IMG/VR virus record: IMGVR_UViG_3300008954_000045
Coordinates: 1-64,000 of that record
DNA length: 64,000 nucleotides
Direction: 5' to 3' (one strand)
Origin: a virus
In this document: in pieces, positions 21,057 to 59,760 of the stretch
How the letters are laid out: the number at the start of each line of letters is the position of its first letter
Numbering within the stretch: position 1 is the first letter of the stretch
Position numbers and translations under genes: made by a program
The notes under the pieces: generated by a model
The model's database searches: none
What the model was told of the DNA's origin: nothing
What the model saw: only the letters and a program-made list of their open reading frames with translations

Positions 21057-21066
21057 TTAGTAATCC

Positions 21067-23436: not shown

Positions 23437-23445
23437 GTCGTTCTC

Positions 23446-26232
23446 CTAGTGAATGCTTGTGTCCATATGGTATATAGATTTCCAAAAATATTGTCCGGCA
23501 GAAGATATACTTCTGTCTACTCTCCCTGCACTTGTCCACATTATAATGTCTGATGTTGACGCCCCATTTGTAATATTGATTGGTAATGCTCCCGTTCCCC
23601 ACCCGTTTGCTATAACTTCAATAGCATTTACACATTTACTTGTTAATTGGATGGTGATAGGAGTCATTCCTGAATATGGATAAGGTTCAGTATTTATCTC
23701 AAAACAATAACTTGAAGTTGTCCCAGTTGCAAGACCACCACCCACATCAGATGCAAATATTCTCTGGTAATATCTCTTCACCATCGATTCTTCGACAGAT
23801 GGATGTCTATATTCCCAATCTGTTGCCACTTTTCCTGCTTCAAGTTGAACTCGGGAAATATCAATCCCGGCTGTTACACCAGCAGACCAAGATCCGGGAA
23901 TTGCCCATCGTAACTCTAACCAGTGTCTTTTTGCTGTATTGTTATTTACACTAATAGGTATAGTTTCGGACACAGTGTTAAGTTCATCAACTGGCCAGAT
24001 TTCAAATGTGTGTGTGTGTTTTGTGAAGTTTTCCGAATTAGACAAAGATGTTAGTGTGAATCCATGATCTGTAGTAGAACCATCTCCCACCCACCCATAA
24101 CAAGCAGAAGCACCACCGTTATATGTTCCTCCATCAACAGATCCATCTGTTACTTGCCAAAGCGTTACATTAACATCTGCATTTTCACCACCAAGAATAG
24201 ACGTTTTTGCCCAATAACTTAGAGTTGCATATGATGTAGATGTTGAATTTGAGAGAGAACGGACATCTTCGATTCGATGTATCAACCAAGCAGTTGCTCC
24301 AGCAACTCCATATTTATCGAAACGAAGATATGTTTGTGGATTTGGCACATAAGTTTCAGAAACATCCGTATCAGCGTCATGACGCATCTTATAGACATGT
24401 ACAGTTGAAGAATTTCCGCCCCAATTAGAAGAACCTGAATTTATCATCCACATATCTGCATGATAACCAGTGTTTCCTCCACTAAACTCAAAGTGTGTTC
24501 CGGTTGTTCCGTCCCAGTATTGGGCACCATGAGGATATCCCATTACCAGTCCATCTTCTGCTCTTTGCCACCAATGAAAATCACCATTAATGACTCTATT
24601 TCGGAAACTCAAGTTGGGAATAGCACCGGGATCGGTCATATACCCCGTTGCTGTATCATACATCATATCTTCTCCGGTACCTCCTGCAACTCCTCCTGTT
24701 GCGGGAACAACCGTTCCGAGATAGTTCACAAAAAGTGCTTCGGTGGAGTTAATAGCAACTAGCACAGTTTTTCTGATGGTGTCTTCTGTTATTGGTTCTG
24801 CACTGGTAAATCCACCACTATTGGTTGAACTATCAAGGAAATACACTTCCCCTGCTGTCATCCCTGCTCCGTCAAAGGGCGCGCCGCCGCTCATACCAGA
24901 AAGATCTACAATTCCGTCATATACAATTACATATTGATCTTCTGGGGCAACCCAAGAACCTTCGATGGTAAGACCCGGGGTGTCTTCTACTATACCGATA
25001 ACTTCTGCACTTACCTTATTATCGTTGTACGATTTACCATATGTTGTTCCTTCGGGAATGAATCGAACAACATCACCAGAAGTAAATCCATGTGCGGTAT
25101 GCTGAATAATCTTTCTGTTAGTCCATTTATGATCAAGATACTTATCGCCAGACATACCTGTTGTTGGGATACCATATTGTGCTGGTTGGTGGTGGAAGGA
25201 AGATCCATAAGTAACTCCACCCACAACAATGTCACCATCTAATTCACTGATCTGAACTGTACCTTTTTTACTAAGGGACAGAGCCTCTTTTGTGATACCA
25301 CTAATGGTATTTTCATAGAAAAATACAAGTCTTCCTTGAACATCGACTGCTGAACCAGATTCTGTATTCTTTCGGATTGTCCATATTTTACTTTCGTTGT
25401 CAAGTTGACGGAAAGTAAGATCCATATCATCGTCTACCACAGAGAATAGATCAAATGATTTGTTCTCGGAAAGGAATCTTGAATCTGAACTAAGCATCAG
25501 ATCAATGTTTGATTTAAATGAGTTGAATTTGAGTCCACCGCTTGTTACGATATAGTCGTATGTGAACTCTTTATCACCAGAAGCACCCTTGATGATAATT
25601 CCTGCCCCGTCTAGATTTTGATCGTTTAGGTATGCGCCACTACCATCTGTGGTATTAGATGCTGCCAAGAATAGATTAACATCATCAACATACAATTCAC
25701 TTGAATTGATGACGGTAGTTTCGCCATCAAAGTAAATATTTCCGTAAAATCTATGATCTCCGCACACTCCGTATGGGAGTAAGTCTTTTGCTGGAATGTG
25801 TCGAATGGCGCCCGTCCCAGTAGATGTGTCTGAAAACGCATAATAGTCATCTTCGTGTATCCAAGCACCAGAAATTCCACCTGTAGCATCTGGGAGATTC
25901 TCGAAATCTAGTGTTAATATTCTACGATCTGTGCTGACATCAGGATTGTTTGCTCCTGTTATACTAGAATCTGTGATAAATCGTAAACCGTAGGTGTAGT
26001 CGCTGGCAGCAACAGGAGTAGTTCCGTCAAAAAACTCATTTACTCCAATGTTTACTCGAAGAGTGGTGGTTCCATCGACTGCACGATATCTAGCAAGACC
26101 CCAACCATTATCAACATCATATACATTGATGTTGTTAACAACATCAATCATATCATTACTTCTCAAAAACCATTCATTGAATGTGTCGGAGAGTTGAAGT
26201 GGTTCAACATAATGGAGACTACTAATGCTCAT
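23446..26232 (-). CDS. long tail fibre-like protein
   Basis: The 928-aa protein begins LHYVEPLQLSDTFNEWFLRSN, a start typical of marine T4-like fibres that attach at the baseplate. Residues about 170-330 hold a GNIYFDGETTVINSSELYVDD segment common to phage fibre shafts. A beta module with GDVVRFIPEGT...GEVYFLDSS (about 375-500) and a C-terminal NRVINGDFHWWQRA plus jelly-roll-like module (about 545-800) are homologous to parts of the 789-aa fibre. It thus looks like a longer paralogue of the same design without the collar domain. It ends in hydrophobic beta strands typical of a fibre tip. Confidence 0.82.
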   Translation of the reverse strand: MSISSLHYVEPLQLSDTFNEWFLRSNDMIDVVNNINVYDVDNGWGLARYRAVDGTTTLRVNIGVNEFFDGTTPVAASDYTYGLRFITDSSITGANNPDVSTDRRILTLDFENLPDATGGISGAWIHEDDYYAFSDTSTGTGAIRHIPAKDLLPYGVCGDHRFYGNIYFDGETTVINSSELYVDDVNLFLAASNTTDGSGAYLNDQNLDGAGIIIKGASGDKEFTYDYIVTSGGLKFNSFKSNIDLMLSSDSRFLSENKSFDLFSVVDDDMDLTFRQLDNESKIWTIRKNTESGSAVDVQGRLVFFYENTISGITKEALSLSKKGTVQISELDGDIVVGGVTYGSSFHHQPAQYGIPTTGMSGDKYLDHKWTNRKIIQHTAHGFTSGDVVRFIPEGTTYGKSYNDNKVSAEVIGIVEDTPGLTIEGSWVAPEDQYVIVYDGIVDLSGMSGGAPFDGAGMTAGEVYFLDSSTNSGGFTSAEPITEDTIRKTVLVAINSTEALFVNYLGTVVPATGGVAGGTGEDMMYDTATGYMTDPGAIPNLSFRNRVINGDFHWWQRAEDGLVMGYPHGAQYWDGTTGTHFEFSGGNTGYHADMWMINSGSSNWGGNSSTVHVYKMRHDADTDVSETYVPNPQTYLRFDKYGVAGATAWLIHRIEDVRSLSNSTSTSYATLSYWAKTSILGGENADVNVTLWQVTDGSVDGGTYNGGASACYGWVGDGSTTDHGFTLTSLSNSENFTKHTHTFEIWPVDELNTVSETIPISVNNNTAKRHWLELRWAIPGSWSAGVTAGIDISRVQLEAGKVATDWEYRHPSVEESMVKRYYQRIFASDVGGGLATGTTSSYCFEINTEPYPYSGMTPITIQLTSKCVNAIEVIANGWGTGALPINITNGASTSDIIMWTSAGRVDRSISSAGQYFWKSIYHMDTSIH

Positions 26233-38736: not shown

Positions 38737-39024
38737 TTACCCATTTGCAATCACATTGGGAGAATGTGTAGCACATCTTGATCCACAGCATACCGGATCT
38801 CCCTTCCGCCCAACTTTTAGTTTGTTTGCAAATACATCTGGTGATCCGTCACACAAAACAGAACCGTGACATGGAGGACCACAACAATGCACTGCCCACG
38901 AATCTGTTACTCTGTGTACTGGTATGTTGTTTGCAAATACATTTGGTGATCCTTGATTGCTGGGTCTTGGAGGATAGCAATCGTGTCCTGTTCCGATATC
39001 GCCTTTTCTGTGAACGTGTGGCAT
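38737..39024 (-). CDS. PAAR-repeat spike tip protein
   Basis: The 95-aa protein has three PAAR-type repeats: GSPNVFANNIPVHRVTDSW, GSPDVFANKLKVGRKGDP and HSPNVIANG. His and Cys residues between them (e.g. HCCGPPCHGS, CCGSRCATH) are suited to bind the metal at the apex. PAAR proteins form the sharp cone that caps the central spike of contractile tails (T4 gp5.4) and pierce the outer membrane. It starts with a TAATG overlap with the glycine-rich gene. It has 8 cysteines, many for such a small protein. Confidence 0.93.
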   Translation of the reverse strand: MPHVHRKGDIGTGHDCYPPRPSNQGSPNVFANNIPVHRVTDSWAVHCCGPPCHGSVLCDGSPDVFANKLKVGRKGDPVCCGSRCATHSPNVIANG

Positions 39025-39740
39025 TACCCATAACTCCTTATGATTGCTTTACCGTCGCCCCCCGCAGCCCCCCAATCCCCCACTACACTACCCCCACCAC
39101 CACCGCCGCCGGGCTGACTTCCATCACTTGCTGGTCCAGTGGACGGTGGGGTTCCATCTGCTCCACCTCCACCAGCACCACCGTTTGGATCGGCGCCATC
39201 CCCACCATCACCCCCATCGTTTCCTTGATAATTTTCGCCAACATTTCCATTTGTGTTGGTATCCCCACCAGAAGCAATTCCCGCATCTCCGCCTGCACCA
39301 CCACTTTTTCCCATTTGTCCACCCCCACCACCACCAGCAGTTACAGAAAACGAAGTGATGGTTGAAAGTAGTCTTTTATGGGATGTCAAACTAGAATCAC
39401 CCCCATCATATCCATCTTGATTTTCGGTTTGTTGTGCTGTGGCCGCAGCACCAACATTAAAGTTGATTGTGTCTCCCGTTTGCATGTTACCTGCACCATA
39501 ATATGTGGTTTTACAGTAAGCACCCCCACCACCACCGCCGCCACTATAATGAGTTACCGATCTACCACCGCCGGTGGTGCTTCTCGATGCACCTTCACCA
39601 CCAGCACCCCACAATTCTAACTCAATATACAGTGTACCAAGAGGAACACTATACGCAACATTTCCCGATGTTGTGTAGGTTTGTTCATCTATCAATTGAT
39701 ATTCTCTGGTACTTGCTGCTCGTCCGATCCCTAACATATT
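39024..39740 (-). CDS. glycine-rich tail protein, adhesin-like
   Basis: The 238-aa protein starts MLGIGRAASTREYQLIDEQT; this ATG (39738-39740) has AGGAGA 5 bases upstream, while the longer frame up to 39797 would overlap the preceding gene. After TLYIELELWGAGGEG it holds at least five long glycine runs (GGGGGGGAY, GGGGGGQMG, GGAGGDAG, GGGGADG, GGGGGGGSVVG) separated by Ser/Thr/Asp-rich loops and ends GKAIIRSYG. The VxLWGAGG...GGGGG layout is a glycine-rich domain found in phage receptor-binding and cell-wall proteins; polyglycine sandwiches form the tip of some T4-like adhesins (gp38 type). Receptor binding is likely but not proven. Confidence 0.75.
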   Translation of the reverse strand, partial: NMLGIGRAASTREYQLIDEQTYTTSGNVAYSVPLGTLYIELELWGAGGEGASRSTTGGGRSVTHYSGGGGGGGAYCKTTYYGAGNMQTGDTINFNVGAAATAQQTENQDGYDGGDSSLTSHKRLLSTITSFSVTAGGGGGGQMGKSGGAGGDAGIASGGDTNTNGNVGENYQGNDGGDGGDGADPNGGAGGGGADGTPPSTGPASDGSQPGGGGGGGSVVGDWGAAGGDGKAIIRSYG

Positions 39741-39744
39741 TCTC

Positions 39745-42700
39745 CTAACTGAAATCTTGTCCACCGACAAATCCATAGTAGGTGGATCCACCATCAACCG
39801 TCAAGAATGTCACAATATCTAGTCTGTTTGAAAATGTTGGTTCAATTCCGCCTGCCCACATTATAGTATCTGTGTTTCCAACTGCCGCACACCCATTACA
39901 AAATAGACAATCATCATATGTGATAGATGCTCCGTTTTCAACATACATCGTTAGTGTTCCTACCGTCCCAGAATCCGGGGCGTTGTACAACCAAATTGCG
40001 CAATTTGGTGGGAATTGTGGAACACTATATTCAGATAGATGTGCGTTGCCATCTTCAAAGTTCATAAAGATATTACCAGAAGCGGGGGTGTTTACTGCAA
40101 TAGAAGTATCTTTAAGTGTTGCTTCGTGAATGGTATTATCTTGTATACTACCAAATACTTCACCAATGTTGTACCATGCTCCTATCTGTATATCATTATT
40201 GAAATTTACAGAAGCAGTAATACCAACTAAATTGTAATTTACATCAAATGTAAAATCTGATGTACCGCCAATTGTACCATTTTCGTTGTATATGATTTTA
40301 TGCACAGAATCAGAATCGTCGTTGGGGGTGGGGGCTGGTCCAGTAGGTCCAACAGGAGGAGTTGTTGCAATCTCCCATTTGTTGTTGTCTGTATATACAA
40401 GAGTATCACCGTCCACTGCACCTGAAATATCATCTGAAACATCAACAATCTCATTTAAATACAAATCATCAACAGATATTCTGATAATGTTTTTCGCTTC
40501 ATTTGTATCTAATTTGATATTAGAACCAGCCACGAATGTGATTATTCCTGAGTTTCCAATAAATCCATCTGAGGAGATTGATGCAGTAAGAGAACCCTTG
40601 ATTATTTGGGTCGTTGATACTGCGCTTTCAAAGTTTGGTTTACCCAGTTCTTTAGAATCTATCAATTCGGCTCTTGAATATTTAAACGAAAAATTAGTAA
40701 GTGGTTCTGTAAAATCATATAGTTTGATTTTTTCGTTTGTGTGGAAATTGACAATTTGAAAGTTTACATCAGCCTGTACTAACTCAACCGGATCTGGTAC
40801 GATTGGGATATCTTTGGACAGTTCTGCATCTGTTCCGAGTATGTCATTTATGCTTCTTGGTGGTGATAGAGGATTACCACCACCGGAACAATCCGCGTCA
40901 GTTAGTCTATCACAGGGGCACGATCCATCGAACGATTGACATGGATAACCATATTCGTGATGACAATAATCTATACAATCTCCATTTAAATTTTCCCCAC
41001 ATTCAATACATCTCTGGCAACCCAAACAAACACAAGCATCATCACAGCAGTCCATATCGTCGCACGGGCATATGCAACAATTTGGCTCGATGCACGGATT
41101 CTCATTATCTCTGCATTCAAAATCTTTGCATAAGTACGTAGGAAGATTGTAGCCGCATTGCCCGCCGTCTCCTATCTGTACACCACATGGTACAATAAAA
41201 GTAGTGTTACATTCAAGATTAGCGCACGGATTTTCGCAACATGAACAAGTGACGGTAACATTACCATCGACACTGTACTCAGAAGAACACCCATTCCACT
41301 CATTATTAGCCTGACAATAATACCTCCAATCACAATCTAGTTTTCCGTTCGCTCCCATTACTCCCCCTGCTGTGTATGCCCACACATATCCACCACCGCC
41401 AGGACATAAGTCTTTTATTTGCGCCTGCACACTGAGGCAGTCACACGGACAGCCGGGACCATCGCCATTTCCCTGCGGATCTAAACCAACAGGACATCCT
41501 AACAGAGGTCTTCTATAACCACGAACTTCCCCATCTTCACAATATTCGTCCGCTGGGGCTATGTGTTGGCAACACCCATAGTCACTACCGACTGGATTAT
41601 CACTAGTTCCACAGCAATAAAGAGAACATTTCCCACCACAACAGGATGTTTGTTGTTCTTCACCTGTACATGGGTTGTAGATCTTCGGGCAAGGGCACAC
41701 ATCATCACCACAAGGCGGGCTCAAGGGCGGCATAGTTCCATCATCATTCTTCGGACAGCACTTTTCGTTGGGGTACGGGCCTGGGGGACCATCATAACTA
41801 AAACAAAAAGCAGTGTCGAACGGGCAACACTGGAAATTACAGCACTCAGCCTCGTCTACTGTACCACAACACGGTCCGGGGGTATTTACGTCGGCACAAC
41901 AAATCCAATTATCTGGACAACAACCACAGGAAGGCCAGCAATTATCATTTTCATTACAACATTCAGCCCGAATCAGGCCTGATTCGGGCTCACAACAAAA
42001 TTCAGCAAGCGAACAACAGGATCTATCATCACAACAACCACTGCTAGTTTCTAGGTTGCAAGGGCACCTATCTCCACAACATTCTGACTCAGCCGCCTCT
42101 TCAGGCGGACAACAATCATCACCACAACAATAAAAATGATCAGGGCAGCACTCTCCACTACAACAATAATACATGTCTTCACAACAGATATCACCACAAC
42201 AATCCTGAGTGTCAGGGCAACACCCACCTCCACAGCATTGTGATCCAGCAGTACAGCACATATCACCACAACATTCTGCATCTGATGGACAACATGTATT
42301 ACCACAGCATTGCGGGCAACAACTACCATCGTCACAACATTCTGTTTCGGGTGGGCAAGGAGGCACACACAACGGTGGTGGACAATATTCACATATTCCA
42401 TTAACACAACATAAATCAGTACCAACACAATCACTTGATGTGTCACATTCAGGGCAGGGTGGTGGTTTACATATACCATCACAACAAATTTCACCCCTTA
42501 ATACACAATGAATGTTTTCCGTACATGCACCACAATGGGTAATGTCACAGGTTGCATTATCACCTTTATATTCACCACCATAAAATAAACATTGGTCGTG
42601 TGTTGTTTCAATGCAAGCATCAATGGCCATTGACTCACATGACGTAGATGGTAAACAACACGCCCCCAAAATTAGTGGTGCTTGATCACATTGTTCATAG

Positions 42701-44553
42701 TCACAATATCCAGCAGGACCTGGAACTCCAAAATTACCAATAGAACCTTCGTTTCCGGGATACCCCACTGGACCGGGCAAAAATGTTGTTTCAGATAATC
42801 CTGCATCACAACTAATGTTGTCGCTCTTTTCAAAAGATGAGAATACCTTATTTTGATATCGCCTTAATTCTATTGCGTCATTTTCACAATCATAACAGTC
42901 ACAAGGAGAACCAGGCTCGGGGTATGGAGAAACCAACAATTCCTCCATTGTAGCAGTTGATTTTCTTTCGATATGTTTGAATTCGGGGAAGAATACATCT
43001 GTGGATCGAGTTACACCATTTTGAATATCAATCAGTTTTTGTTTGAATTCTGATGTGCTGAATATCTCAGAAACCAGTTCTTTGAAAATAGGATCATTTT
43101 CGGTTTCTTTAAGAATATTCTGCCCAAGCGTGTAGTTGTGTACCACCTTTTTCGCTTTGCAATAGTTTTCTTCGTCTTTATCAATTAAACTACGAACATC
43201 TTCAATAATTTTTGGTAGGAACGGAGAAACTACAGAATCAAATACTGTAGGATTATTCCACAATTCAAGTGCTAATCCGATAATACCAGATCCTTCTGAT
43301 ATTGAAGTAGAATCACAAGAATCACAAGGAACACAAGCAGTTTTGTTAATGATTTTGTTTAAACGAAAATCACCAATCCCCATCAAACTTCCAAACACAA
43401 AAGAATAACTCTCTTGATCTATATCAGTAATTGTTTTCATTATACTGGAATATGCACCAGCAATCGTTAATCTATCAAAAAAATCATCCATCGTTTCTGC
43501 GTTTTTCCCAGAAATCACATCCGTATGAAATTTTAGCATATTTAAAGTCATTACTAAAGTCTCAAGTAGAGATATCACTTCGTCTGCTTGATTTTTAGTG
43601 AGAGGAAAAATTTCAGAAATAGTAGGAATATTATCGTGTTCGGGTGATGGTATTGGTCCTTGATATAGAGTATATGATTCTGCGGTAGGACCTTCTGGAA
43701 CAAACGATTGCGGATATTCAACAACATTTCCGGTATCTTCTACGCCTGAGACGTAATAAGGCGTTTCCCCCTCATCACCATACCGTACAAAATCTTCTTC
43801 TGGTGGTATTGGAATTTGCTCTGGTTCACAAATATAATAGATGGTAGAACCATCAGAACCAAAAGTTTCACCCATAACCCCGCAAGTGCTACCGGAACCA
43901 CCATATACCCCCCCAGTCATAGAACAATCCAATTCAGTATACGAATAACATTTGTTTACAACACAACACCACCCTGTAGCCCCATTTAATTCGACAGGAA
44001 TGGAAATGTCTGACTCAGATTCTGTATTGTTTATAACCCCCCCCTCTTCCATAAGAGGGTCAAAAGTCCCTTGCTCTTCATAAATAACATTTTCAAGTTC
44101 TTCTTCGAGTTCTTCTATAGCATCCGATGTTACACCATAAGTACCGTGAAATTGAATCCCACTACCAGCCCCACCCAAACCATTAGGCATATAATAATCA
44201 ACACCATTAATTGTGTGTGTATGATATCCTGCTGTGGTTTCACCATCTCTAATATAATCCGGTGTTGGGCTTGCATCTATTGCTTCTTGTGTGGTATGGA
44301 AAAGTGGATAGTGCCCATCAAGAGCAAATGCGTTTGTTCCAGGCCAAGCAACACCATCTTCCAATACCAAATCAAACATCGAAGTAAGAATTTCAATTTC
44401 TTTTTGACAAATTTCAACAGATTCATCAATTATCACAGTTAGAGGATTTTGAAAACCTTTACCTTCGGCAATCAATGTGATAGCATGACGCTGCTCTCGC
44501 GTTAGCGTGTCAAACGGTATTTCTATGGTTTCGGGAATCTCGAACTTAGCCAT
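39745..44553 (-). CDS. giant cysteine-rich virion protein 1 (1602 aa)
   Basis: The first 100 residues (IEIPFDTLTREQRHAITLIAE, GFQNP) and the last 300 are homologous to the next gene. Between are a Gly-Xaa-Yaa collagen-like stretch (GPVGYPGNEGSIGNFGVPGP, about residues 590-615) and a region of about 600 residues (nucleotides 40880-42710) with roughly 125 Cys by my count. Its core repeats CCGD.CC and CCPD...CC about every ten residues. Two units of the type G-ACC...C......C...GG.Y.G....C occur. The end has GSNIKLDTNEAKNIIRISVDDL and GPTGP, followed by a beta tip with DGGSTYYGFVGG. No signal peptide is seen. It is probably a disulphide-stiffened appendage of the tail, formed after lysis (inference). 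Confidence 0.85.
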   Translation of the reverse strand: MAKFEIPETIEIPFDTLTREQRHAITLIAEGKGFQNPLTVIIDESVEICQKEIEILTSMFDLVLEDGVAWPGTNAFALDGHYPLFHTTQEAIDASPTPDYIRDGETTAGYHTHTINGVDYYMPNGLGGAGSGIQFHGTYGVTSDAIEELEEELENVIYEEQGTFDPLMEEGGVINNTESESDISIPVELNGATGWCCVVNKCYSYTELDCSMTGGVYGGSGSTCGVMGETFGSDGSTIYYICEPEQIPIPPEEDFVRYGDEGETPYYVSGVEDTGNVVEYPQSFVPEGPTAESYTLYQGPIPSPEHDNIPTISEIFPLTKNQADEVISLLETLVMTLNMLKFHTDVISGKNAETMDDFFDRLTIAGAYSSIMKTITDIDQESYSFVFGSLMGIGDFRLNKIINKTACVPCDSCDSTSISEGSGIIGLALELWNNPTVFDSVVSPFLPKIIEDVRSLIDKDEENYCKAKKVVHNYTLGQNILKETENDPIFKELVSEIFSTSEFKQKLIDIQNGVTRSTDVFFPEFKHIERKSTATMEELLVSPYPEPGSPCDCYDCENDAIELRRYQNKVFSSFEKSDNISCDAGLSETTFLPGPVGYPGNEGSIGNFGVPGPAGYCDYEQCDQAPLILGACCLPSTSCESMAIDACIETTHDQCLFYGGEYKGDNATCDITHCGACTENIHCVLRGEICCDGICKPPPCPECDTSSDCVGTDLCCVNGICEYCPPPLCVPPCPPETECCDDGSCCPQCCGNTCCPSDAECCGDMCCTAGSQCCGGGCCPDTQDCCGDICCEDMYYCCSGECCPDHFYCCGDDCCPPEEAAESECCGDRCPCNLETSSGCCDDRSCCSLAEFCCEPESGLIRAECCNENDNCWPSCGCCPDNWICCADVNTPGPCCGTVDEAECCNFQCCPFDTAFCFSYDGPPGPYPNEKCCPKNDDGTMPPLSPPCGDDVCPCPKIYNPCTGEEQQTSCCGGKCSLYCCGTSDNPVGSDYGCCQHIAPADEYCEDGEVRGYRRPLLGCPVGLDPQGNGDGPGCPCDCLSVQAQIKDLCPGGGGYVWAYTAGGVMGANGKLDCDWRYYCQANNEWNGCSSEYSVDGNVTVTCSCCENPCANLECNTTFIVPCGVQIGDGGQCGYNLPTYLCKDFECRDNENPCIEPNCCICPCDDMDCCDDACVCLGCQRCIECGENLNGDCIDYCHHEYGYPCQSFDGSCPCDRLTDADCSGGGNPLSPPRSINDILGTDAELSKDIPIVPDPVELVQADVNFQIVNFHTNEKIKLYDFTEPLTNFSFKYSRAELIDSKELGKPNFESAVSTTQIIKGSLTASISSDGFIGNSGIITFVAGSNIKLDTNEAKNIIRISVDDLYLNEIVDVSDDISGAVDGDTLVYTDNNKWEIATTPPVGPTGPAPTPNDDSDSVHKIIYNENGTIGGTSDFTFDVNYNLVGITASVNFNNDIQIGAWYNIGEVFGSIQDNTIHEATLKDTSIAVNTPASGNIFMNFEDGNAHLSEYSVPQFPPNCAIWLYNAPDSGTVGTLTMYVENGASITYDDCLFCNGCAAVGNTDTIMWAGGIEPTFSNRLDIVTFLTVDGGSTYYGFVGGQDFS

Positions 44554-44560
44554 AGGGAGT

Positions 44561-47500
44561 TCATCCTGTAAATCCTAAACCACCAACAAATCCATAATAA
44601 CCAGAACCACCATCTAATGTAGTAAACGAAATAATATCTGTACCGCTTACCGACAAGGTTGGTATATGCCCTCCCGACCATTTTATATCACCAAAAGAAA
44701 GCCCGCCGGAATGTGATTCGGCATCCTCAAATATAATAGTCATTGTACCAACAGTTCCTGACGTTGGGGCATTGGTAAATGTCCATTGTATTGAATTGCC
44801 TGTATCAATCCCTCCCACCTTAACTTTTTGTACATTTCCATTTTCAAAATCAAATTCTACACTAATAGCAACTGTTCCGTTATCATAGAACGATTCAGAA
44901 TAATCCTTAAGATTTGCTCTCTCTATTGTGTTGTCTTGTGCTTGAATGTCCCCAGAAGAGGTAAATCCATCATATAGATAAGCGTCTGCATTTATTTGGA
45001 GGACATTTGAACTATAATCGTATTTAAGATTGTTGCTACCTGTTGCTTCTCCGTTTTGGTTGTAAAGTATTTGCTCATCGGCACCACCAACTGGTCCTGT
45101 AGGTCCAACCGGTCCTTGCCCCGGTTGGGTGGGTGTCCACAACCCTGTGGTTGAATGCCATTGTAAAATATCATTGTCAGATGGTGTTGCTTCCGACACA
45201 TCAATGAGTTCATGTAAATACAAATCATCAACAGATATTCTGATAATGTTTTTTGCTTCATTCGTATCTAATTTGATATTAGAACCAGATACGAAGGAAA
45301 TTAACAAACCCTCACCAATCATTCCATCTTTTTGTATAGACGCAGTGAGTTCACCTTCAATTATAGTAGTTGATGCTTTATTGTTTTCATATCCGGCGTG
45401 CCCCAAAGAAGCATCACTTTTCATTTCCGCTTTTGATATTAGAGACAAACTTCCTTGGGCATACTTAGAATCCCTCAATTCTGTTTTCTTCTTTTCAGAT
45501 GCAACAAAGTTTACAAGTTGAAATTGAATTGGTTGAGAAAGAACGACAGGTTTAGTTGGGCTTACAAGAGGTTTAGCATTTGATATATTTGCAGTTGTAC
45601 CGATGGTGCCTGGTTTGAATTCCAACTCAACATTGTGCCCTACAATAATGCCGTTTTCGTATATTGGTGTGTATGTCTTGCTTGATTCGACCATATTTTG
45701 AATTGAAGTGTTTGGGTATTTCTTGAGCAAGCCAGAATATTTTCTAACATTTATCTGAGACGTATCGTTTCTAGATTGTATTGTTTTTGGTGTCGGTGGA
45801 ATTTGACTTGGGGGAATATATCCATCACAACTATCTTTCCAAATTCCACCCAACACAACACAACTATCTCTTGTTATTTCGCTGTTGCACCCATCTTCTA
45901 ACCAACACACACCAAAAGATCTAAATCCGGGATTGCAGTTATTACAATCACCTTCAATACAACTAGTACCATCCAATTTAGGCCGTGGGTCACAATGCTC
46001 AAATCCATTTACTTCACACCCATATCTGCACCCACCTTCGCACGGATAGTATCCGGGGAATGATAGGGAACCATCAACCCCCACATATCGGTCAACACAA
46101 CTGATTCCAGATTTTGAAATTGTTGCACACCCATCACCAACATATACCTTACCTGGCATATCCTCATCTTCTTTTGGTATATCATACATTCCTTGTGGAC
46201 CGGGACCGACACAATTTCGATTTCCCCACCCACAAACCTCGCATTCATCAGGACAACAAGTGGGGCAAGGATCTATATTACTATTGATGTCATTTAGACC
46301 CCAGTTTCCAGTTTCTTCAAGGAGTACATAGTTGTCGGGTTTGTCTGGATCTACTCTACATTCGCAAGGATTCCCTGACACATCTGACCAAATACCATCA
46401 CACCTATAGTCCATTTTCTTTGGATTGATGGGTGATAGGGGATAGAAAAGAGGGCAATGAATAACACACTGAGATGTCCCAATATCAGCATTATCATCAT
46501 ATATTGCTTCTGGATTACCGTCACTGTGTTCACAGCCACACGGGCATCCGTGATTTTCTGTGGTGTTTGGATCTGGAGTGAGTTGTCGGACAATTGGTTG
46601 CCAATTATTCCATTCTAACCAAGATTGGTGATCGTTGTGCGGGCAGCAACCATGTTCAGACCAAACACATACAGTCTCTGCGGTGTTTGGGTTTGTAGCA
46701 CAGCAACAATTCCCCGTCGAAGAATTTTTACATTCTCCGTTGCAGCACGATTCACCTACATCACAACAAAAAGTTTCTCCGTCTTCGTTGATGCATTCTT
46801 CTTTGTTGCAATCATCACAAACCGTACAACGATCAACACAACACAATTCACCACTACCACAACATTCCCCACCACAAGAGTTAGTAGTACCTTCTAAGCA
46901 ACAATAATGAGTGTTACCTTCCATCCAGCAAGTTTCACCATATGGACAACAGCAACCACCTTGTTCCCAACAATCTAGATTGCTGTGTTCCATCCCACAC
47001 GGTTCCGCATCATTACTGTCACACCTACATCCGCACCCACCTATAAACGATTGACCAAAACCACAATATGTGGTTTCTTCTCCAGTAAAATGATCATAAT
47101 ATTTGTCTTCTGTTGGACTATAACATATGCAGTGTGTTGTAGTACCTTCCCCTTGCCATTCTTCTGTACACATCTCACAATTATCCGGGCAACAATTACC
47201 AGATATGCAGTTACCCGAACAACATCCCGCCGGTGCATTTTCACAACACTCTCCACTACAACAATATGGAGTACCATCATCCAATCTACAGCACGAATTA
47301 CCATTCGGACAGCAATGGAATGTGTCGTCAAATTCACATTCATAAAAACCACTTAAACATTCGCATACGGTTTCAATGGGGACACACTCACCGTTACAGC
47401 ATTTAGATAAGTCATCGCAACATTTACCATCACAATGTTGTGTAGTATTACAACACTCATTACCTGCAATTGTTGTGAGACACGATTCCCCCGGCGGACA

Positions 47501-48979
47501 GCAAAGACACCCACCGTCCAAACAAGTCTTTCCAGACATCCCACTACCGCAACATTCATCTTCGCAGCAATTACCTTCTAAACAACAACCATCGCCACCA
47601 CAACAAGATGTTCCTTGTGGGCAACATTCCCCCTGACAATCAGGACATGTTCCATCTAAACAGGGTTCATAGCAAAATCCATTACAACACACTGTAGTTC
47701 CCGCACAGCAAGTATCACCACACACTGTAGTTCCCTCTGGGCATTGTGGACATGGGGGACATGTATTATCGGAGCAAGGTGTGGTGCATTGACCACCACA
47801 ACATATCATTCCGAGGGCACAGTCTGCTGTGACGGAACATCCGCTAGGTAGGCAATTAATAACCGAACAAGAAGAATTCTCCCCATAGAATTCTCCACCA
47901 TAATGAAAACACTGAAATTCAGTTGCAGACACGCAATACCCGCAAACACAACAAGCACCCTCGGTACCACCCCCTTGCCAGCAGGGGCTTTCCTCTCCTT
48001 GGTTATTAGTTTCTCCACAATTACAGTCACCAACTGGACCAGGAATACCAGGCGATCCAGTTATTCCCCTACCTCCATGTGCGCCTGTTGGTCCAGCCGG
48101 ACCGATAGATATTAGTTGATCTTCGATGAGACAAGGACCAGTACTTTCAAGATTGAATTGAGGAAAGAACTCATTGGTGGTTGTGCTTGGGTTGGGATTT
48201 CGTATTGCAAGAATTGCTTCTTGTAGTTGGGGGGTTGCAAATACAGATTGCATTGCTGCACCGAAAATTGGATCACTGTCGAGTGTTTCTATAATTTTGG
48301 TGCCGTATGAGTACCTTTCAATTACACGTTTTGCTTTGCAAAAATTTTGTTCATCGTTTTCAATCAAAGATTTGAGTTTATCGACAATTGTTGGGAGTAA
48401 ACAAGTGATGATGCTCGGGATTGTTACCGGGAACCTCTGAACAACCCCAGCAAGTCCTTGTAGTCCTGATGAACTTGTATCAATATCACAATAATTTGAT
48501 GAAGTTTCACAAAAAGATAGATGATGAATTCTTCCAATGATGTTATCACCAAGAACGGAAAGACTACCGAATATCTCAGAGTGTTGTTCTCTGTCCATTC
48601 CGGTAATAGTTTTCATTACTCTGGTATACAAACCTGCAATTGATAATCGTTGAACCAAATCACCAACATATTCACTTTCAACACCAGACAATTTATCAGT
48701 GTGTAGTTTTAGTACATCTAGCCAATATTTAATCAACGTGAGCCAGTAGTCTAATTCGATTATCTGTTGTTCGGTGATGCGTGATTGATCGAATGGATGA
48801 ATTTCGAGTGCGAGGATTTTGGCATGTTCCTCCTCAACAATTTTTTTTGCTTCTTTGATTTTTGGTGCTTGGGGGTTTTGGAAGCCTTCACCTGTCATCA
48901 CCAAATAGACAGCCTCTCGTTGCTCGTTTGTGAGCATATCGAAAGGGATTTCAATATTGGGTACGGAGAAGTTTGCCAT
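44561..48979 (-). CDS. giant cysteine-rich virion protein 2 (1472 aa)
   Basis: This is a paralogue of the preceding entry with the same layout: N-terminal domain IEIPFDMLTNEQREAVYLVM (residues 9-28), helical part with RLSIAGLYTRVMKTITGMD, collagen-like GPAGPTGAHGGRGITGSPGI (about residues 292-311), a very Cys-rich region (nucleotides 45830-48030) with CCGSGELCC, HCCPNGNSCC and CCSGECC units, and a C-terminal part with GSNIKLDTNEAKNIIRISVDDL, GPVGPTGP and a tip ending DGGSGYYGFVGG. The Cys-rich region aligns only loosely with that of protein 1, while the C-terminal 20-residue core is almost identical. Position between gp5 and PAAR genes suggests a baseplate or fibre location. Confidence 0.85.
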   Translation of the reverse strand: MANFSVPNIEIPFDMLTNEQREAVYLVMTGEGFQNPQAPKIKEAKKIVEEEHAKILALEIHPFDQSRITEQQIIELDYWLTLIKYWLDVLKLHTDKLSGVESEYVGDLVQRLSIAGLYTRVMKTITGMDREQHSEIFGSLSVLGDNIIGRIHHLSFCETSSNYCDIDTSSSGLQGLAGVVQRFPVTIPSIITCLLPTIVDKLKSLIENDEQNFCKAKRVIERYSYGTKIIETLDSDPIFGAAMQSVFATPQLQEAILAIRNPNPSTTTNEFFPQFNLESTGPCLIEDQLISIGPAGPTGAHGGRGITGSPGIPGPVGDCNCGETNNQGEESPCWQGGGTEGACCVCGYCVSATEFQCFHYGGEFYGENSSCSVINCLPSGCSVTADCALGMICCGGQCTTPCSDNTCPPCPQCPEGTTVCGDTCCAGTTVCCNGFCYEPCLDGTCPDCQGECCPQGTSCCGGDGCCLEGNCCEDECCGSGMSGKTCLDGGCLCCPPGESCLTTIAGNECCNTTQHCDGKCCDDLSKCCNGECVPIETVCECLSGFYECEFDDTFHCCPNGNSCCRLDDGTPYCCSGECCENAPAGCCSGNCISGNCCPDNCEMCTEEWQGEGTTTHCICYSPTEDKYYDHFTGEETTYCGFGQSFIGGCGCRCDSNDAEPCGMEHSNLDCWEQGGCCCPYGETCWMEGNTHYCCLEGTTNSCGGECCGSGELCCVDRCTVCDDCNKEECINEDGETFCCDVGESCCNGECKNSSTGNCCCATNPNTAETVCVWSEHGCCPHNDHQSWLEWNNWQPIVRQLTPDPNTTENHGCPCGCEHSDGNPEAIYDDNADIGTSQCVIHCPLFYPLSPINPKKMDYRCDGIWSDVSGNPCECRVDPDKPDNYVLLEETGNWGLNDINSNIDPCPTCCPDECEVCGWGNRNCVGPGPQGMYDIPKEDEDMPGKVYVGDGCATISKSGISCVDRYVGVDGSLSFPGYYPCEGGCRYGCEVNGFEHCDPRPKLDGTSCIEGDCNNCNPGFRSFGVCWLEDGCNSEITRDSCVVLGGIWKDSCDGYIPPSQIPPTPKTIQSRNDTSQINVRKYSGLLKKYPNTSIQNMVESSKTYTPIYENGIIVGHNVELEFKPGTIGTTANISNAKPLVSPTKPVVLSQPIQFQLVNFVASEKKKTELRDSKYAQGSLSLISKAEMKSDASLGHAGYENNKASTTIIEGELTASIQKDGMIGEGLLISFVSGSNIKLDTNEAKNIIRISVDDLYLHELIDVSEATPSDNDILQWHSTTGLWTPTQPGQGPVGPTGPVGGADEQILYNQNGEATGSNNLKYDYSSNVLQINADAYLYDGFTSSGDIQAQDNTIERANLKDYSESFYDNGTVAISVEFDFENGNVQKVKVGGIDTGNSIQWTFTNAPTSGTVGTMTIIFEDAESHSGGLSFGDIKWSGGHIPTLSVSGTDIISFTTLDGGSGYYGFVGGLGFTG

Positions 48980-48995
48980 TATATACTCTCTGTGT

Positions 48996-49760
48996 TTAGA
49001 TTATATCACCAATATCTATGTCTGGTAAACTTATGCTGTCTGTGATACAATCCAGACCAGGGATATCTGGCATCAATCCACCAACATCTGGAATATCTAC
49101 TCCTAACGCGCCAGGAACATCACCCAAACCAAAATCTCCAATATTACCAAACATTCCTTCTGCAATACCTTGAAAATCTGGAACTTCTGGTATCGTGGGA
49201 ATCTTAAAATTACAAAGATCTGCAAGTGGATTTCCAATATCCACAGCAGATAGGACACTATCAGCAAAAGATTTTGCCATCGCTTCAACTTCTTCTAGTG
49301 ATGGTGGTTCTGGTATACTTGGCAGTTTGATTAAACCACTAAATTCTGGTATACCAGAAAACATCACTTCTGGATCAAGCAACTTTCCAATGTCTGGTGG
49401 AACTCCAAGAGAGGATATCACTTGCTCCATGTTTGGAATGCTAGGCAAAGAACCCAATGATGCTAATCCATCGATATCTTTAAATAGATTTTCATTACAT
49501 AAAGGATTGCTTGATAAAAGACCGCTAATTCCTCCAATATCTGGAATCATTCCTTCTAGAAGATCTGATGCACAACCACCAACATCTGGCATCAATCCAC
49601 CAAGATCAACATCAGGTAAAAAACCACCAAGATCTGGCATCAAATCACCAACGTCAGGAATCAAACCTTCTATTGCTTCACCAGCAGCATCTGCTAGATT
49701 ATCAGGTCTGATACTATCAATTGCTTCGTTAATTCTCGGGATGTTGTCTTCTAGTGCCAT
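48996..49760 (-). CDS. low-complexity protein with IPD.GG repeats, next to gp5
   Basis: This 254-aa product is dominated by Pro, Asp, Ile, Leu and Gly in imperfect repeats such as LIPDVGDLMPDLGGFLPDVD and IPDVGGLMPDIPG at both ends, with helical parts between (EVEAMAKSFADSVLSAVD). Four cysteines. I do not know the family. It begins with a TAATG overlap with gp5 and is followed by the Cys-rich genes. It may be a flexible linker or an accessory of the hub/spike. Very few charged basic residues are present, so it is strongly acidic. Confidence 0.75.
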   Translation of the reverse strand: MALEDNIPRINEAIDSIRPDNLADAAGEAIEGLIPDVGDLMPDLGGFLPDVDLGGLMPDVGGCASDLLEGMIPDIGGISGLLSSNPLCNENLFKDIDGLASLGSLPSIPNMEQVISSLGVPPDIGKLLDPEVMFSGIPEFSGLIKLPSIPEPPSLEEVEAMAKSFADSVLSAVDIGNPLADLCNFKIPTIPEVPDFQGIAEGMFGNIGDFGLGDVPGALGVDIPDVGGLMPDIPGLDCITDSISLPDIDIGDII

Positions 49761-51040
49761 TATTGACTATAATACCCCGGATGGTTCAGATGGATATCTG
49801 GACCTGCATTGTAATATTGATTCTTCCCAGACTGTATTTGAATCTGCCCGTCTACTCTCATATTATAGTTCCCGCTTACATACGCATCAAAGTCTCCAGA
49901 TATAGCAGTGTTCATGTTCCCATCAACCAATTCGGTGTTCATATCACCCTTCACCAATTTGGTATTGACGTTTCCTTCTTTCACTTCAAGGTTGATGTTT
50001 GCCTTATCTCCAATATGGATATCAAAATGACAATTGCCTGCTGCGTCATTTTCGCCTTTCTTTTGCTTGTCCTTGTTTGCCATAATCTTGATACCCTTAT
50101 CAAGAGTTATGTTTGTATATCCCTCAACATGAACAGATTTATTTCGTAAAATTACTGTATAGTCATTTCTAACAACTTTTTGAACACGATCCCCGTTTGG
50201 GTGTATCTCTTCAAATGTACCAGATCGGTGATATCTATGAAGACGCTCGGCACCAGGCGTATCGTCAATTTCAATCACATGACCAGATTCACTTTCATGT
50301 ACATGATTATGAGGATAGATGGCACTATATGCCGTTTTTGGTTCTGTCCAAAATCCTTGAGGTGAAGGTTCCGCAGTATTCTTTTTGCTTTTCTTGATAC
50401 TTGTGCGGACTGGTTCTCCAGTATATTCACTCGTTGGAATTTTCTCATCCAACAACCCAGGCGAAGAACCACCCAAAGGTCGTCTCTTAATTTCAACAAT
50501 TGTTTTATCAATTTCTTCGTTTCTTGCAAGTCGATTTGTGTCGGGTTCATTTAAAAAGAATTCTTTTGGATATGCTTTACCCGCATCCGAGTTTACCAAG
50601 AGGGCACCTTGTCCGTCTCTTGGATACTTTTGTACCTTATAACCCTTCGCAAGCATGTGCCCTACTGGATCTTGCTTACGTTTATCTTCATCACGCGGAT
50701 CATTGAATCCTGTTTCGTTGTCTGCCTTTTTTTCTGGTATACCGCCGATTGAACCCATCATTATAGGTTCTTGTGCGTTTTCTCCGTCACGGAAAAAACC
50801 AACAACCCACGAACCGGGAACAAGACCCGTTGGGGAAAACCCTACCCCGCTTATTGCTGCACTAGTGATTGGTTGAATCGGATAAGCCCACGGCAAATCT
50901 TCTGTCTTTATCATACTTTTATCGTCAGTATGAAACCCTAATATACGAACTCGACATCTACCAAGCATTAGAGGGTCATCAACATCCTCAACAACACCTT
51001 GCCACCAAATGAAATTGTCTTTACCTATAAAGTTTTGCAT
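49760..51040 (-). CDS. gp5: gp5-like central spike protein without lysozyme domain
   Basis: The 426-aa protein has the gp5/VgrG OB-fold at the N-terminus: FIWWQGVVEDVDDPLMLGR, CRVRILGFH, LPWAYPIQPIT, and GSWVVGFFRDGENAQEPIMMG. The middle (about 140-250) is charged and has no lysozyme motif, unlike T4 gp5 (575 aa). The C-terminus forms the triple beta-helix: octads of the type VxGxxxxx, e.g. VKEGNVNTKLVKGDMNTELV near 350-370. The trimer is the membrane-puncturing needle, with the PAAR protein as tip. It follows the gp27-like hub gene by 3 bases. Confidence 0.92.
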   Translation of the reverse strand: MQNFIGKDNFIWWQGVVEDVDDPLMLGRCRVRILGFHTDDKSMIKTEDLPWAYPIQPITSAAISGVGFSPTGLVPGSWVVGFFRDGENAQEPIMMGSIGGIPEKKADNETGFNDPRDEDKRKQDPVGHMLAKGYKVQKYPRDGQGALLVNSDAGKAYPKEFFLNEPDTNRLARNEEIDKTIVEIKRRPLGGSSPGLLDEKIPTSEYTGEPVRTSIKKSKKNTAEPSPQGFWTEPKTAYSAIYPHNHVHESESGHVIEIDDTPGAERLHRYHRSGTFEEIHPNGDRVQKVVRNDYTVILRNKSVHVEGYTNITLDKGIKIMANKDKQKKGENDAAGNCHFDIHIGDKANINLEVKEGNVNTKLVKGDMNTELVDGNMNTAISGDFDAYVSGNYNMRVDGQIQIQSGKNQYYNAGPDIHLNHPGYYSQ

Positions 51041-56901: not shown

Positions 56902-59760
56902 ATGGACAAAAACGAAAAACAACTAAAAGATATCACCAAAGTACTCAAGGATCAAAATAAAATCCTTGAGAAAAATGTTAGTGATCCTATAAAAGATCAA
57001 GAGGGTGTTATTAAAGACACCAAGACAATTGTAACTGAAACACACGACAACATCACTTCATCCATTCCTGAGAGGGAAAGTCTGGACATCAAAAGAGCGA
57101 ACAAGTTTAATGATCTTGCAGAAGATCTTCAACATAAATTCTCATCTTTTGATGCCGAACAGATTTCAAATCTTACTAACTTCGGTGCAGTAGTTGAGAA
57201 TGCTACAGCAAGAGTAGAAAAAATACAACAAGATTCTTTTGCTGGTATATCGGAATCTCTTACTGAATCTTTTGCCACCTCATTGAATTTTGTTGATAGG
57301 TTGTCATACAGAATACACGCACAAGCCGATCAAAATATTAGAAACATGAACGAAGCAGTTTCTTCCTTTGATATGATGCAATCTAATGCTGGTAAGTTTC
57401 TTGAAACACGAATGTTAGAACTCTCCAACCAATTGCTTACAGCAGATCATAAGCAAGCAGTACACATTAAAAACGAAATGCTTGCATTACGAAAACATTC
57501 AAAGAAATTACACGGACATGAACGAGACAGAATGGAAGCGATGCACGGTGCTATGGCAGATGGGATGGAAAATCTCACCGACAAGACCTCTATATTCAAA
57601 CAAGCATTGTTTGATTCTCTCCCAACAATGGACAGTCTTGCAGAGAGGATGCTTGGAGGAGGAATTTTTGGTAAGTTTGCAGGGAATGTAATTCGTTCGG
57701 TAAAGACAAAAAAACAACAAGAAGCAGCAACAAATATTGCTATGGAATCTGCAATGCAAAAAGATTTCATCGAGGATGGTTTATCTGAGGCGAAAGGTGC
57801 AGCAACAGATATTGCTATGGAATCTGCAATGCAAAAAGATTTCATCGAGGATGGTTTATCTGAGGCGAAAGGTGCTGATGTTATAATGGGCGGTACTGGG
57901 GAGTTGTCCGAAGAGCAAGAACAAGAAGTGGTAGATGAGCAGGTTGCTCTTCTCCGTGAACTTTCAAGACAAGGAAGTTCGTTATCCGAAGAATCAGACA
58001 AACAAACGCTATTATTAGAAGAAATAAATGATTCGGATTCAACCGATCAGACAGAACAAGAACTTTTAGATATAAACAAACAGGCTCTTCTAGTATCAAA
58101 AGAACAGTTGGCGGTTGAGCAAGAAGAAAAAATACAAAACAAACAGAACGGAATAGACAGGAAAGAGAGTCTAAGGGAACGTCTTCGACTATCAGCCAAA
58201 AGACATAAACAGTCTCTTAAGGCGAAAAGGCGAGCAGCAGGGAAAGACGGCGCGGCTGGCGCCAGTGGCGGAGGAGGAATGTTCTCCGGTCTTCTATCAA
58301 GCGGGCTTGGTAAAATGGTTATGTCGATGGGAGGATCTCTTGTTGGGATGCTTGGTGCCATTGTTCCTCTTATCATTCCTATTCTTGCCGGGGCTGCGAT
58401 GATTGCTGCTCTAGCAGCGGTAGTCTGGGCCATTGTTGATCTGGATTCCCTTAAAGACACACTTGGAATCACTGACGCACAAGATGAAGTTTATGAAGAA
58501 CAGACTGCTATATTTGAAGATATTTCTTCAACAGATGTGGCAGGAACAGATGGTTCGGGGGTAATGAAAACCAAAAGTGGAAAAACTTTATATCGAAACC
58601 AAACTACTGGAGGGATCGAAGCATATAGCGATGAAGAGTATGCTAAAATGGAAGAGAAGGCATATGAAACGGGCGATGATGCATTTTGGGAACTTGCTCC
58701 AATTAGAGACACAAAACAATCTGGAAAATCAGTAGAGTTTGAAGAGGGAGAAGATTTAGAAAATTTAAGATTGGGCAACCTATCTCTTGATGAAGCAACA
58801 GAAGCAATAAACCGTTCACAAATAAAAGATGGGAACAGGAAGGTGTATCTTGGATTATTATCTAAGGTCATTTCCTTAGACGACACATTTAGAGATCAAT
58901 ATGAAAACTATATCACCACTGGCGATCTTCCCGGTTCTGTAGTTGGGAAAGGCCCTGCATGGAGCAATTGGGGAGTAATGTGGTCTGCTAATTTTCAAGG
59001 TATTCAAGACGAAGTGGGTCATAGATTCAAAGGAGGAATGATAACAGAAGAGCAAAAAGATCTTTTATACGGTTTGTCTCCCTTCCTCGAAGAAGGATTT
59101 ACGCATTCTTTCGATGAACCTTGGATGTTATATGAAACATACGGAGAATTAAATTTACCGGATGTAACTTTAGAGTCGGAACCAGCAACTTTTGGCGAAG
59201 CACCTTACATAAACAGCGAAAACAAAGATATTCAGATTGCATATTCAAATGCACTAACAGAATATCACACTGGAGGTTTGGTAAGAGGAAATGCTCCAGA
59301 TATTCCAGCAATATTGGCTCCCGGTGAGTTTGTAGTAAGAGCAGAAGCAGTAAAGAGACTTGGTTTAAGAACCATTGAATCGATAAACAATCTTTCTTCG
59401 GTTCCTCTCCCATTAAGCAAACTCGCAAAATTTGAAAAGATGAAGAAAAAAGAGACTATCGGGTACAATATTAATTTTAATAAAGATATGTACGAGACGG
59501 CGACTCGTAAGACGGCGACTCGTATTGAAGAACTTCCCGGTATATCCGCGACGTTGTTGGGACTAGAAGAGCAAAACAAACAACTCAAAGAAACAATAGC
59601 ATATAATAAAGAATATAGTGAACCACAACCAAACATAAACCAAAACATAACAAGCGTGAGCAATAACAACACAACATCCGTAACTCCTCCAAATCCGCAC
59701 TACAACGAATCCGCACTTCAAAACTTACGCGGAAACAGAATGAGATCCATTACCATATAA
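56902..59760 (+). CDS. tail tape measure protein (gp29 role)
   Basis: The 952-aa protein has the tape measure layout: about 420 residues of charged helix and coiled coil (DKNEKQLKDITKVLKDQNKI at the start), a basic stretch RRAAGKDG, a hydrophobic membrane-like part at about 453-513 (MVMSMGGSLVGMLGAIVPLI and following), and a C-terminal YHTGGLVRGNAPDIPAILAP with GEFVVRAEAVKRLG, a motif frequent at tape measure ends. It occupies the position of T4 gp29 in function, though sequence likeness to gp29 is not obvious. Two tandem duplications lie in it (75 bp and 15 bp). A hairpin terminator follows directly. Confidence 0.85.
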   Translation: MDKNEKQLKDITKVLKDQNKILEKNVSDPIKDQEGVIKDTKTIVTETHDNITSSIPERESLDIKRANKFNDLAEDLQHKFSSFDAEQISNLTNFGAVVENATARVEKIQQDSFAGISESLTESFATSLNFVDRLSYRIHAQADQNIRNMNEAVSSFDMMQSNAGKFLETRMLELSNQLLTADHKQAVHIKNEMLALRKHSKKLHGHERDRMEAMHGAMADGMENLTDKTSIFKQALFDSLPTMDSLAERMLGGGIFGKFAGNVIRSVKTKKQQEAATNIAMESAMQKDFIEDGLSEAKGAATDIAMESAMQKDFIEDGLSEAKGADVIMGGTGELSEEQEQEVVDEQVALLRELSRQGSSLSEESDKQTLLLEEINDSDSTDQTEQELLDINKQALLVSKEQLAVEQEEKIQNKQNGIDRKESLRERLRLSAKRHKQSLKAKRRAAGKDGAAGASGGGGMFSGLLSSGLGKMVMSMGGSLVGMLGAIVPLIIPILAGAAMIAALAAVVWAIVDLDSLKDTLGITDAQDEVYEEQTAIFEDISSTDVAGTDGSGVMKTKSGKTLYRNQTTGGIEAYSDEEYAKMEEKAYETGDDAFWELAPIRDTKQSGKSVEFEEGEDLENLRLGNLSLDEATEAINRSQIKDGNRKVYLGLLSKVISLDDTFRDQYENYITTGDLPGSVVGKGPAWSNWGVMWSANFQGIQDEVGHRFKGGMITEEQKDLLYGLSPFLEEGFTHSFDEPWMLYETYGELNLPDVTLESEPATFGEAPYINSENKDIQIAYSNALTEYHTGGLVRGNAPDIPAILAPGEFVVRAEAVKRLGLRTIESINNLSSVPLPLSKLAKFEKMKKKETIGYNINFNKDMYETATRKTATRIEELPGISATLLGLEEQNKQLKETIAYNKEYSEPQPNINQNITSVSNNNTTSVTPPNPHYNESALQNLRGNRMRSITI
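57724..57873 (+). repeat. 75-bp tandem duplication in the tape measure
   Basis: Copies 57724-57798 and 57799-57873 differ by one base (aaat/agat, Asn to Asp) and encode the same 25-residue unit AATNIAMESAMQKDFIEDGL-SEAKG twice. The repeat is in frame and head to tail. Confidence 0.97.
59496..59525 (+). repeat. 15-bp tandem duplication in the tape measure
   Basis: GACGGCGACTCGTAA is followed directly by GACGGCGACTCGTAT; the product reads TATRKTATRI. It is GC-rich compared with its surroundings. Confidence 0.9.

Follow-up and report, generated by a model that had tools for sequence, protein, structure and literature searches.

P1 and P2 are adjacent, paralogous, Cys-rich genes on the minus strand of a 64,000-nucleotide stretch of viral DNA, here called the window (positions 1 to 64,000 of IMG/VR virus record IMGVR_UViG_3300008954_000045, a contig of 67,941 bases). 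They probably encode structural fibre proteins of a T4-like phage that attach to the baseplate. The favoured reading, for which the odds are reasonably good, is that both products form trimeric fibres anchored to the baseplate: a disulphide ladder would make up the shaft, the receptor-binding tip would be exchangeable, and oxidation would take place upon lysis or later. Assembly of phage tail proteins takes place in the reducing cytoplasm, and few of these proteins rely on disulphides. The two genes are laid out as follows:

P1: 39745..44553, minus strand; 1602 aa with 144 Cys.
P1 N domain: aa 1-53 and 319-543, split by a block of about 260 aa (aa 54-318).
P1 collagen-like stretch: 42703..42774, minus strand; aa 594-617, 8 GXY triplets.
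P1 CC-unit region: 42109..42342, minus strand; aa 738-815, 28 Cys in 12-aa units of the form CCxxxCCxxxxx.
P1 C-terminal fibre core and tip: 39748..40839, minus strand; aa 1239-1602, 44% identical to P2.
P2: 44561..48979, minus strand; 1472 aa with 135 Cys.
P2 helical N domain: aa 1-290.
P2 collagen-like stretch: 48023..48103, minus strand; aa 293-319, 9 GXY triplets.
P2 C-terminal fibre core and tip: 44564..45604, minus strand; aa 1126-1472, phrog_7760.

The first-pass annotation of this DNA described two neighbouring genes of 1602 and 1472 aa at 39745-48979 that share an N-terminal domain, a collagen-like stretch, a Cys-dense region (more than 100 Cys in the first protein), and a fibre-like C-terminal tip. 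The open reading frames and coordinates are exact, and the paralogy holds: P1 1-52 and P2 1-51 are 52% identical, P1 319-543 and the P2 N domain 36%, and the C-terminal ~350 residues (P1 1239-1601, P2 1126-1471) 39-44%. The Cys-rich part of P1 (aa 618-1222) contains 124 of its 144 Cys, and that of P2 (aa 319-1051) contains 130 of 135. These parts are 600-730 aa long, and Cys reaches at most 1.6-1.8% in the remaining long open reading frames of the window. The P2 C-terminus matches the tail fiber protein family phrog_7760 (E 2.5e-5), and P1 shares this fibre-type domain through its identity to P2. The collagen-like stretch is present in both proteins but is short, and in P1 it falls below the cut-off for Pfam Collagen (E 0.093).

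Across the Cys-rich part, the Cys residues of the P1/P2 family are, judged from alignments, under extreme constraint. P2 was compared with its homologue on the related IMG/VR contig L011/L137 (full-length homologue P2′, L011 6572-11041). All 135 of 135 Cys are kept, whereas the non-Cys residues of the Cys region are only 51% identical, and TGT and TGC have been exchanged at 61 of the 135 Cys codons, with synonymous sites saturated. Because every Cys persists despite this saturation, the Cys richness is not chance. P2′ has two additional Cys, both within one insertion. P1 and its counterpart P1′ keep 64 of 66 Cys across the first 820 residues and 68 of 78 in the later repeat-rich part, where the alignment is less sure. 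Between closer homologues (three pairs), Cys changes mostly involve pairs or a whole 12-aa unit, the pattern expected if Cys work in pairs. One 12-aa unit with four Cys is deleted between L147 and L149, together with a rearranged end, and a CYC pair of L142 is missing in L143, alongside two gains and one shifted Cys.

Cys pairs had been described as recurring every five residues, which applies to P1 738-815 alone. There, the distance between CC starts alternates between 5 and 7 residues, which yields 12-aa units, e.g., CCGDMCCTAGSQ. CC spacing is irregular in the rest of P1, and P2 is less regular than P1. The pattern CCx3CCx5CC occurs five times in P1 against a shuffle mean of 0.04, and none of 2000 shuffles of the Cys region reached five. 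The exact pattern has zero copies in P2, which nonetheless exceeds its shuffles in CC (28 vs 19.5) and CCx5CC (6 vs 0.7).

AlphaFold2 folds the units of P1 738-815, modelled within P1 618-940, into six successive beta-hairpins with a period of 12 and a pLDDT of 83-92, and every CC sits on a strand. The model of P2 1-640, based on an alignment of 14 family rows, shows helices in the N domain, no structure in the collagen segment, and a hairpin run with a pLDDT of mostly 58-80. The side chains of adjacent strand residues point in opposite directions, so a CC pair lets one Cys bond backwards and the other forwards along the stack, and the model thus suggests a disulphide ladder. The model does not show the knots of the earlier description (disulphide-knotted appendages); its hairpins stack as a ladder, and linking them by disulphides is the use of the Cys that has the better support. 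A search of the Protein Data Bank (PDB) with the P1 CC-repeat model returned 22 matches at E ≤ 10, none significant; every one is a chain or complex that contains extracellular disulphide-rich domains, including ADAM17 complexes, TNF receptors, EGF, and RSPO furin-like domains.

The fibre core (QFQIVNF...FVSGSNIRLDT) is conserved among relatives, and the tip downstream of it differs (L140, L142, L147, L149). L140 and L142 share one ending, L147 and L149 match phrog_8780, and P1 and P2 end in DGGSxYYGFVGG. In L142, L143, L147, and L149, the core and tip form a separate next gene with 1-4 Cys. Tip exchange is typical of receptor-binding ends, and the tip is best read, from sequence, as an exchangeable end that would bind a receptor. 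With conserved Cys and exchanged tips, the Cys part would serve stability and the tip would set host range. The ~260-aa block of P1 (aa 54-318) is absent from P2, and part of it recurs in L142 and L143, in the gene that encodes the tip separately (47-51% identity over 62-63 aa). A YPLF/YPLY...ASP...HTH...YYMPNGLG...HGTY block inserted in P1 (43729-44397, aa 53-275) is partly present in the tip genes of L142, L143, L147, and L149 and has no match in described phages.

Relatives of P1 and P2 were sought by profile and pattern scans of IMG/VR and are present, single or duplicated, on at least 10 further contigs with distinct sequences, including other T4-like contigs. L010 and L011 meet in one gene and count as one contig; L012 also matches, but its gp5 and P2 start equal those of the window and it lies outside this count. 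The 134.8-kb contig L138, which looks largely complete (capsid, terminase, sheath, and fibre genes), carries two copies (1512 aa with 158 Cys and 1378 aa with 123 Cys), and L140 carries a single copy of 2425 aa with 269 Cys. In L142, L143, L147, and L149, the Cys-rich gene encodes 989-1239 aa with 158-167 Cys and ends after the Cys part. In an N-domain tree, P1 and P2 each group with their respective counterparts from L137 (100/100 in both cases), so the duplication is older than the split of the window and L137 phages.

A first scan with P1 alone recovered no relatives. The strict pattern CCGxxCC was absent from viral contigs and gave one low-complexity false match (L016) in genome contigs, and the looser pattern matched, among the hits listed, mostly poly-Cys frames from repetitive DNA, which were rejected on reading the open reading frames. 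No family member was found in 50,697 phage records, a collection from which near-identical records may be left out. Searches of phages and plasmids by tblastn with several pieces of the family gave no match or one insignificant match, and whole P2 gave merely weak collagen or tip matches (E 0.1-10). Two contigs of one metagenome, L010 at its start and L011/L137 at its end, break off within the CC repeats of a single P1 homologue; assembly breaks of this kind may cause such genes to be under-reported. On the minus strand of L118, an open frame of ~395 aa has 158 Cys (40%) in CCT/CCTN-type repeats after a normal-looking N-terminus.

The window belongs to a T4-like phage, with a Gp23 capsid (Pfam, E 3.9e-136), gp18 sheath, gp32, Gp59, and T4_baseplate, as well as gp53, a tail cap, a gp5-OB hub, PAAR, gp25, gp6, and other wedge genes. 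Its gp6 is closest, among described phages, to those of Methylophilales phage Melnitz and Pelagibacter phage Mosig (38-39% identity). On contigs that carry both flanks, the order is gp5 hub, usually a protein of 189-267 aa, the Cys-rich gene or genes, a Gly-rich gene and/or PAAR, gp25, and gp6. The baseplate-operon location proposed in the first-pass annotation thus holds wherever both flanks are present, and the gp5 hub is the constant upstream marker. The neighbours of P1 and P2 are:

PAAR spike-tip protein: 38737..39024, minus strand; 95 aa, PF05488 (E 5.1e-9).
P3, Gly-rich protein: 39024..39737, minus strand; Gly_rich_2 PF21722 (E 2.1e-11), phrog_863 tail fiber assembly (E 9e-17).
PDVGG/MPD repeat-rich protein: 48996..49760, minus strand; 254 aa, no family match, with a counterpart upstream of most Cys-rich homologues.
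gp5-type baseplate hub with OB domain: 49760..51040, minus strand; PF06714 (E 3.9e-29), phrog_430.

P3 is syntenic in L010 and L138 and possibly a partner at the fibre tip. Its listed frame (39024-39797, minus strand) has a TTG start that overlaps P1; homologues begin with MLGI, and translation of P3 probably begins at ATG 39737 (MLGIGRAAS...), matching the start in L010 and L138. Three more fibre-like genes lie at 18867-26232 on the minus strand (a beta-helix protein of 729 aa, a collar-domain protein of 789 aa, and a fibre of 928 aa), so P1 and P2 would form an additional fibre set. The L138 genome (L152 3407-10648) has three counterparts of similar size and family matches. A 952-aa protein without a Pfam or PHROG match is encoded on the plus strand at 56902-59760, between a T4 baseplate protein and gp32. 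The 134.8-kb T4-like phage also encodes a 376-aa protein (L155:1454-2581; G001 101454-102581) that starts MNISMITKFGIASVVAGLATMANAD, has no PHROG match, and looks secreted or outer-membrane.

In the favoured reading, the helical N domain would dock at a conserved baseplate site of the virion, and the short collagen helix would form the trimer. The Cys-rich part would fold into a long stack of small beta-hairpins with a CC pair on each strand, and within each CC one Cys would bond the preceding hairpin and the other the following hairpin. The C-terminal core would bear the exchangeable tip, perhaps capped by P3. Newly made chains may stay reduced in the cytoplasm and become oxidised upon lysis or later, either spontaneously or driven by the host, and the oxidised shaft would be stiff and protease-resistant. 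A bolder and more tentative proposal, held at somewhat less than an even chance, is that these proteins represent a new class of appendage: a trimeric fibre with a CC-hairpin shaft whose disulphide ladder closes only after release into oxidising water. The particle would then harden outside the cell, while whole 12-aa units vary and the tip is swapped freely.

Several observations weigh against the favoured reading. Four Cys are gained in the L147/L149 comparison outside the deleted unit with no clear pairing, and total Cys is odd in several family members; parity is mixed and was not used as evidence. The regular 12-aa period covers only part of the Cys region, and the remainder has a pLDDT of mostly 50-80. 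AlphaFold can misassign disulphides in folds of this kind (PMC11035057). Neither the CC-repeat model nor the N-domain model has a significant PDB match, and the fold search with the latter returned only long helices. Genes for thioredoxin, glutaredoxin, and DsbA were not found on nine contigs, including the 134.8-kb one, so either the host or post-lysis exposure would have to bring about oxidation. A search for Evr1/ALR was also silent, as was its ALR control, and is hence uninformative.

Four alternatives were weighed. The strongest, though unlikely, holds that P1 and P2 are central parts of the baseplate or tail tip that decorate the gp5-PAAR hub and spike, where a disulphide-stiffened rod would assist puncture or closure of the tail tip. 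Their position between gp5 and PAAR and the presence of separate fibre genes (phrog_4492, collar domain) at 18867-26232 are compatible with such a role. However, tips swapped among relatives suit receptor binding better than a central needle, and collagen with tail-fiber C-termini is typical of fibres.

The first-pass annotation also offered metal-loaded proteins, a rival that has weakened and is given a lower chance than a central needle. CC, CxC, and CxxC motifs would take up Zn, Fe, or Cu while still in the reducing cytoplasm, and the virion would stay metal-filled, carrying trace metals on its tail or using them to engage uptake receptors. Synthesis in a reducing compartment, the failure to find a phage oxidase on the nine contigs searched, and the 11 CxC and 15 CxxC motifs of P1 fit this proposal. 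Iron has been reported in the tail fibres of T4 and marine phages, though through HxH motifs (PMC11705849), and HxH occurs once in P1 and not at all in P2. The dense regions contain 51-82 aromatics and few Lys or Arg, unlike metallothioneins, and no metal-protein family matched by profile. The paired or whole-unit Cys changes and the hairpin prediction, in which each strand of the 12-aa units carries CC, also argue against metal-thiolate filling, which is less likely than disulphides.

That P1 and P2 are non-virion proteins, released at lysis to stick to cell surfaces or other particles, is quite improbable. Secreted proteins typically carry Cys-rich repeats of the extracellular kind, and a large STIG1-type protein on the 165-kb viral contig L018 has no recognised tail gene beside it in the stretch examined, yet P1 and P2 occupy a constant position within the baseplate operon, and their N domain is conserved and their C-terminus of fibre type. 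An annotation artefact or low-complexity drift is refuted, since every P2 Cys is kept amid saturated synonymous change and no tandem repeat that could generate the pattern was found in P1/P2 DNA, even though the pattern scan gave many false poly-Cys frames on other contigs.

These genes indicate that uncultured T4-like phages invest 3-9 kb in proteins with more than 100 and up to 270 Cys. The family points to a virion part that matures by oxidation after lysis and to a new source of very stable modular fibres, and its genes may serve as a marker set for a T4-like phage group absent from the described records searched. Thiol-bound metal on virions, if present instead, would be relevant to trace-metal chemistry. 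Neither the described phage records nor the papers searched contained a fibre in which hundreds of residues form a Cys-dense hairpin stack; the literature search gave no report of such Cys-rich proteins in phages, and the rusticalin papers it returned concern eukaryotic repeats.

In predicted structure, P1 and P2 resemble granulins. Granulins are described as having laddered disulphides with stacked beta-hairpins (PMC11035057), and truncated granulins have been obtained in vitro by air oxidation (PMC7463432). Granulin and mini-granulin (PDB 6cku) have short Gly/Pro-rich loops like those of P1 and P2, and CC pairs on successive beta-hairpins and a disulphide ladder as predicted for these proteins; the profile match to 6cku is weak (E 4.3). 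The strict 12-Cys granulin spacing occurs in none of 15 family sequences, and its relaxed core CC-CC-CC-CC occurs in 5 of 15. Pfam Granulin has no match at E ≤ 10 in the Cys regions of P1, P2, and L147. As both spacing and profile fail, the proteins were classed as granulin-like in working and not as granulin family members; a 12-residue period with many units and the phage fibre context belong to P1 and P2.

The L018 protein (L018:1095-5459; 1454 aa, 281 Cys) is likewise giant, Cys-rich, and phage-encoded, with 13 Stig1 stretches (E 6.9e-40), but it has no collagen or N domain, lies in a different genome setting, and is unrelated to P1 and P2, which, like L147, do not match Stig1 (PF04885). 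It is a second, independent giant Cys-rich phage protein. The best viral-model match of the CC-repeat model is an uncharacterised protein of Borely moumouvirus (A0A6G6ABL3; Foldseek, E 5.2e-5, 126 columns). This is a eukaryotic virus, the TM-score is only 0.15-0.18, and the likeness is likely convergent. The Kyanoviridae T4-like phages Mosig, Melnitz, and S-RIM44 resemble the window in gp6 (35-39% identity) and baseplate gene order, but their baseplate regions lack a Cys-rich protein (at most 7 Cys per long open reading frame).

Tail fibres with collagen are already known. Those of PHROG 7760 share with P1 and P2 the collagen stretch, C-terminal fibre domain, and exchangeable tip, and none of them is known to have a Cys-rich part of several hundred residues. 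A weak match to 'Fiber Upper, gp68' (6v8i; E 0.11) was also obtained. T5 Ltf and DT57C LtfA/LtfB (PMC4728585) are a comparable case, a fibre for which one phage uses a single gene and its relative two; among the relatives of P1 and P2, the break separates the Cys-rich part from the tip.

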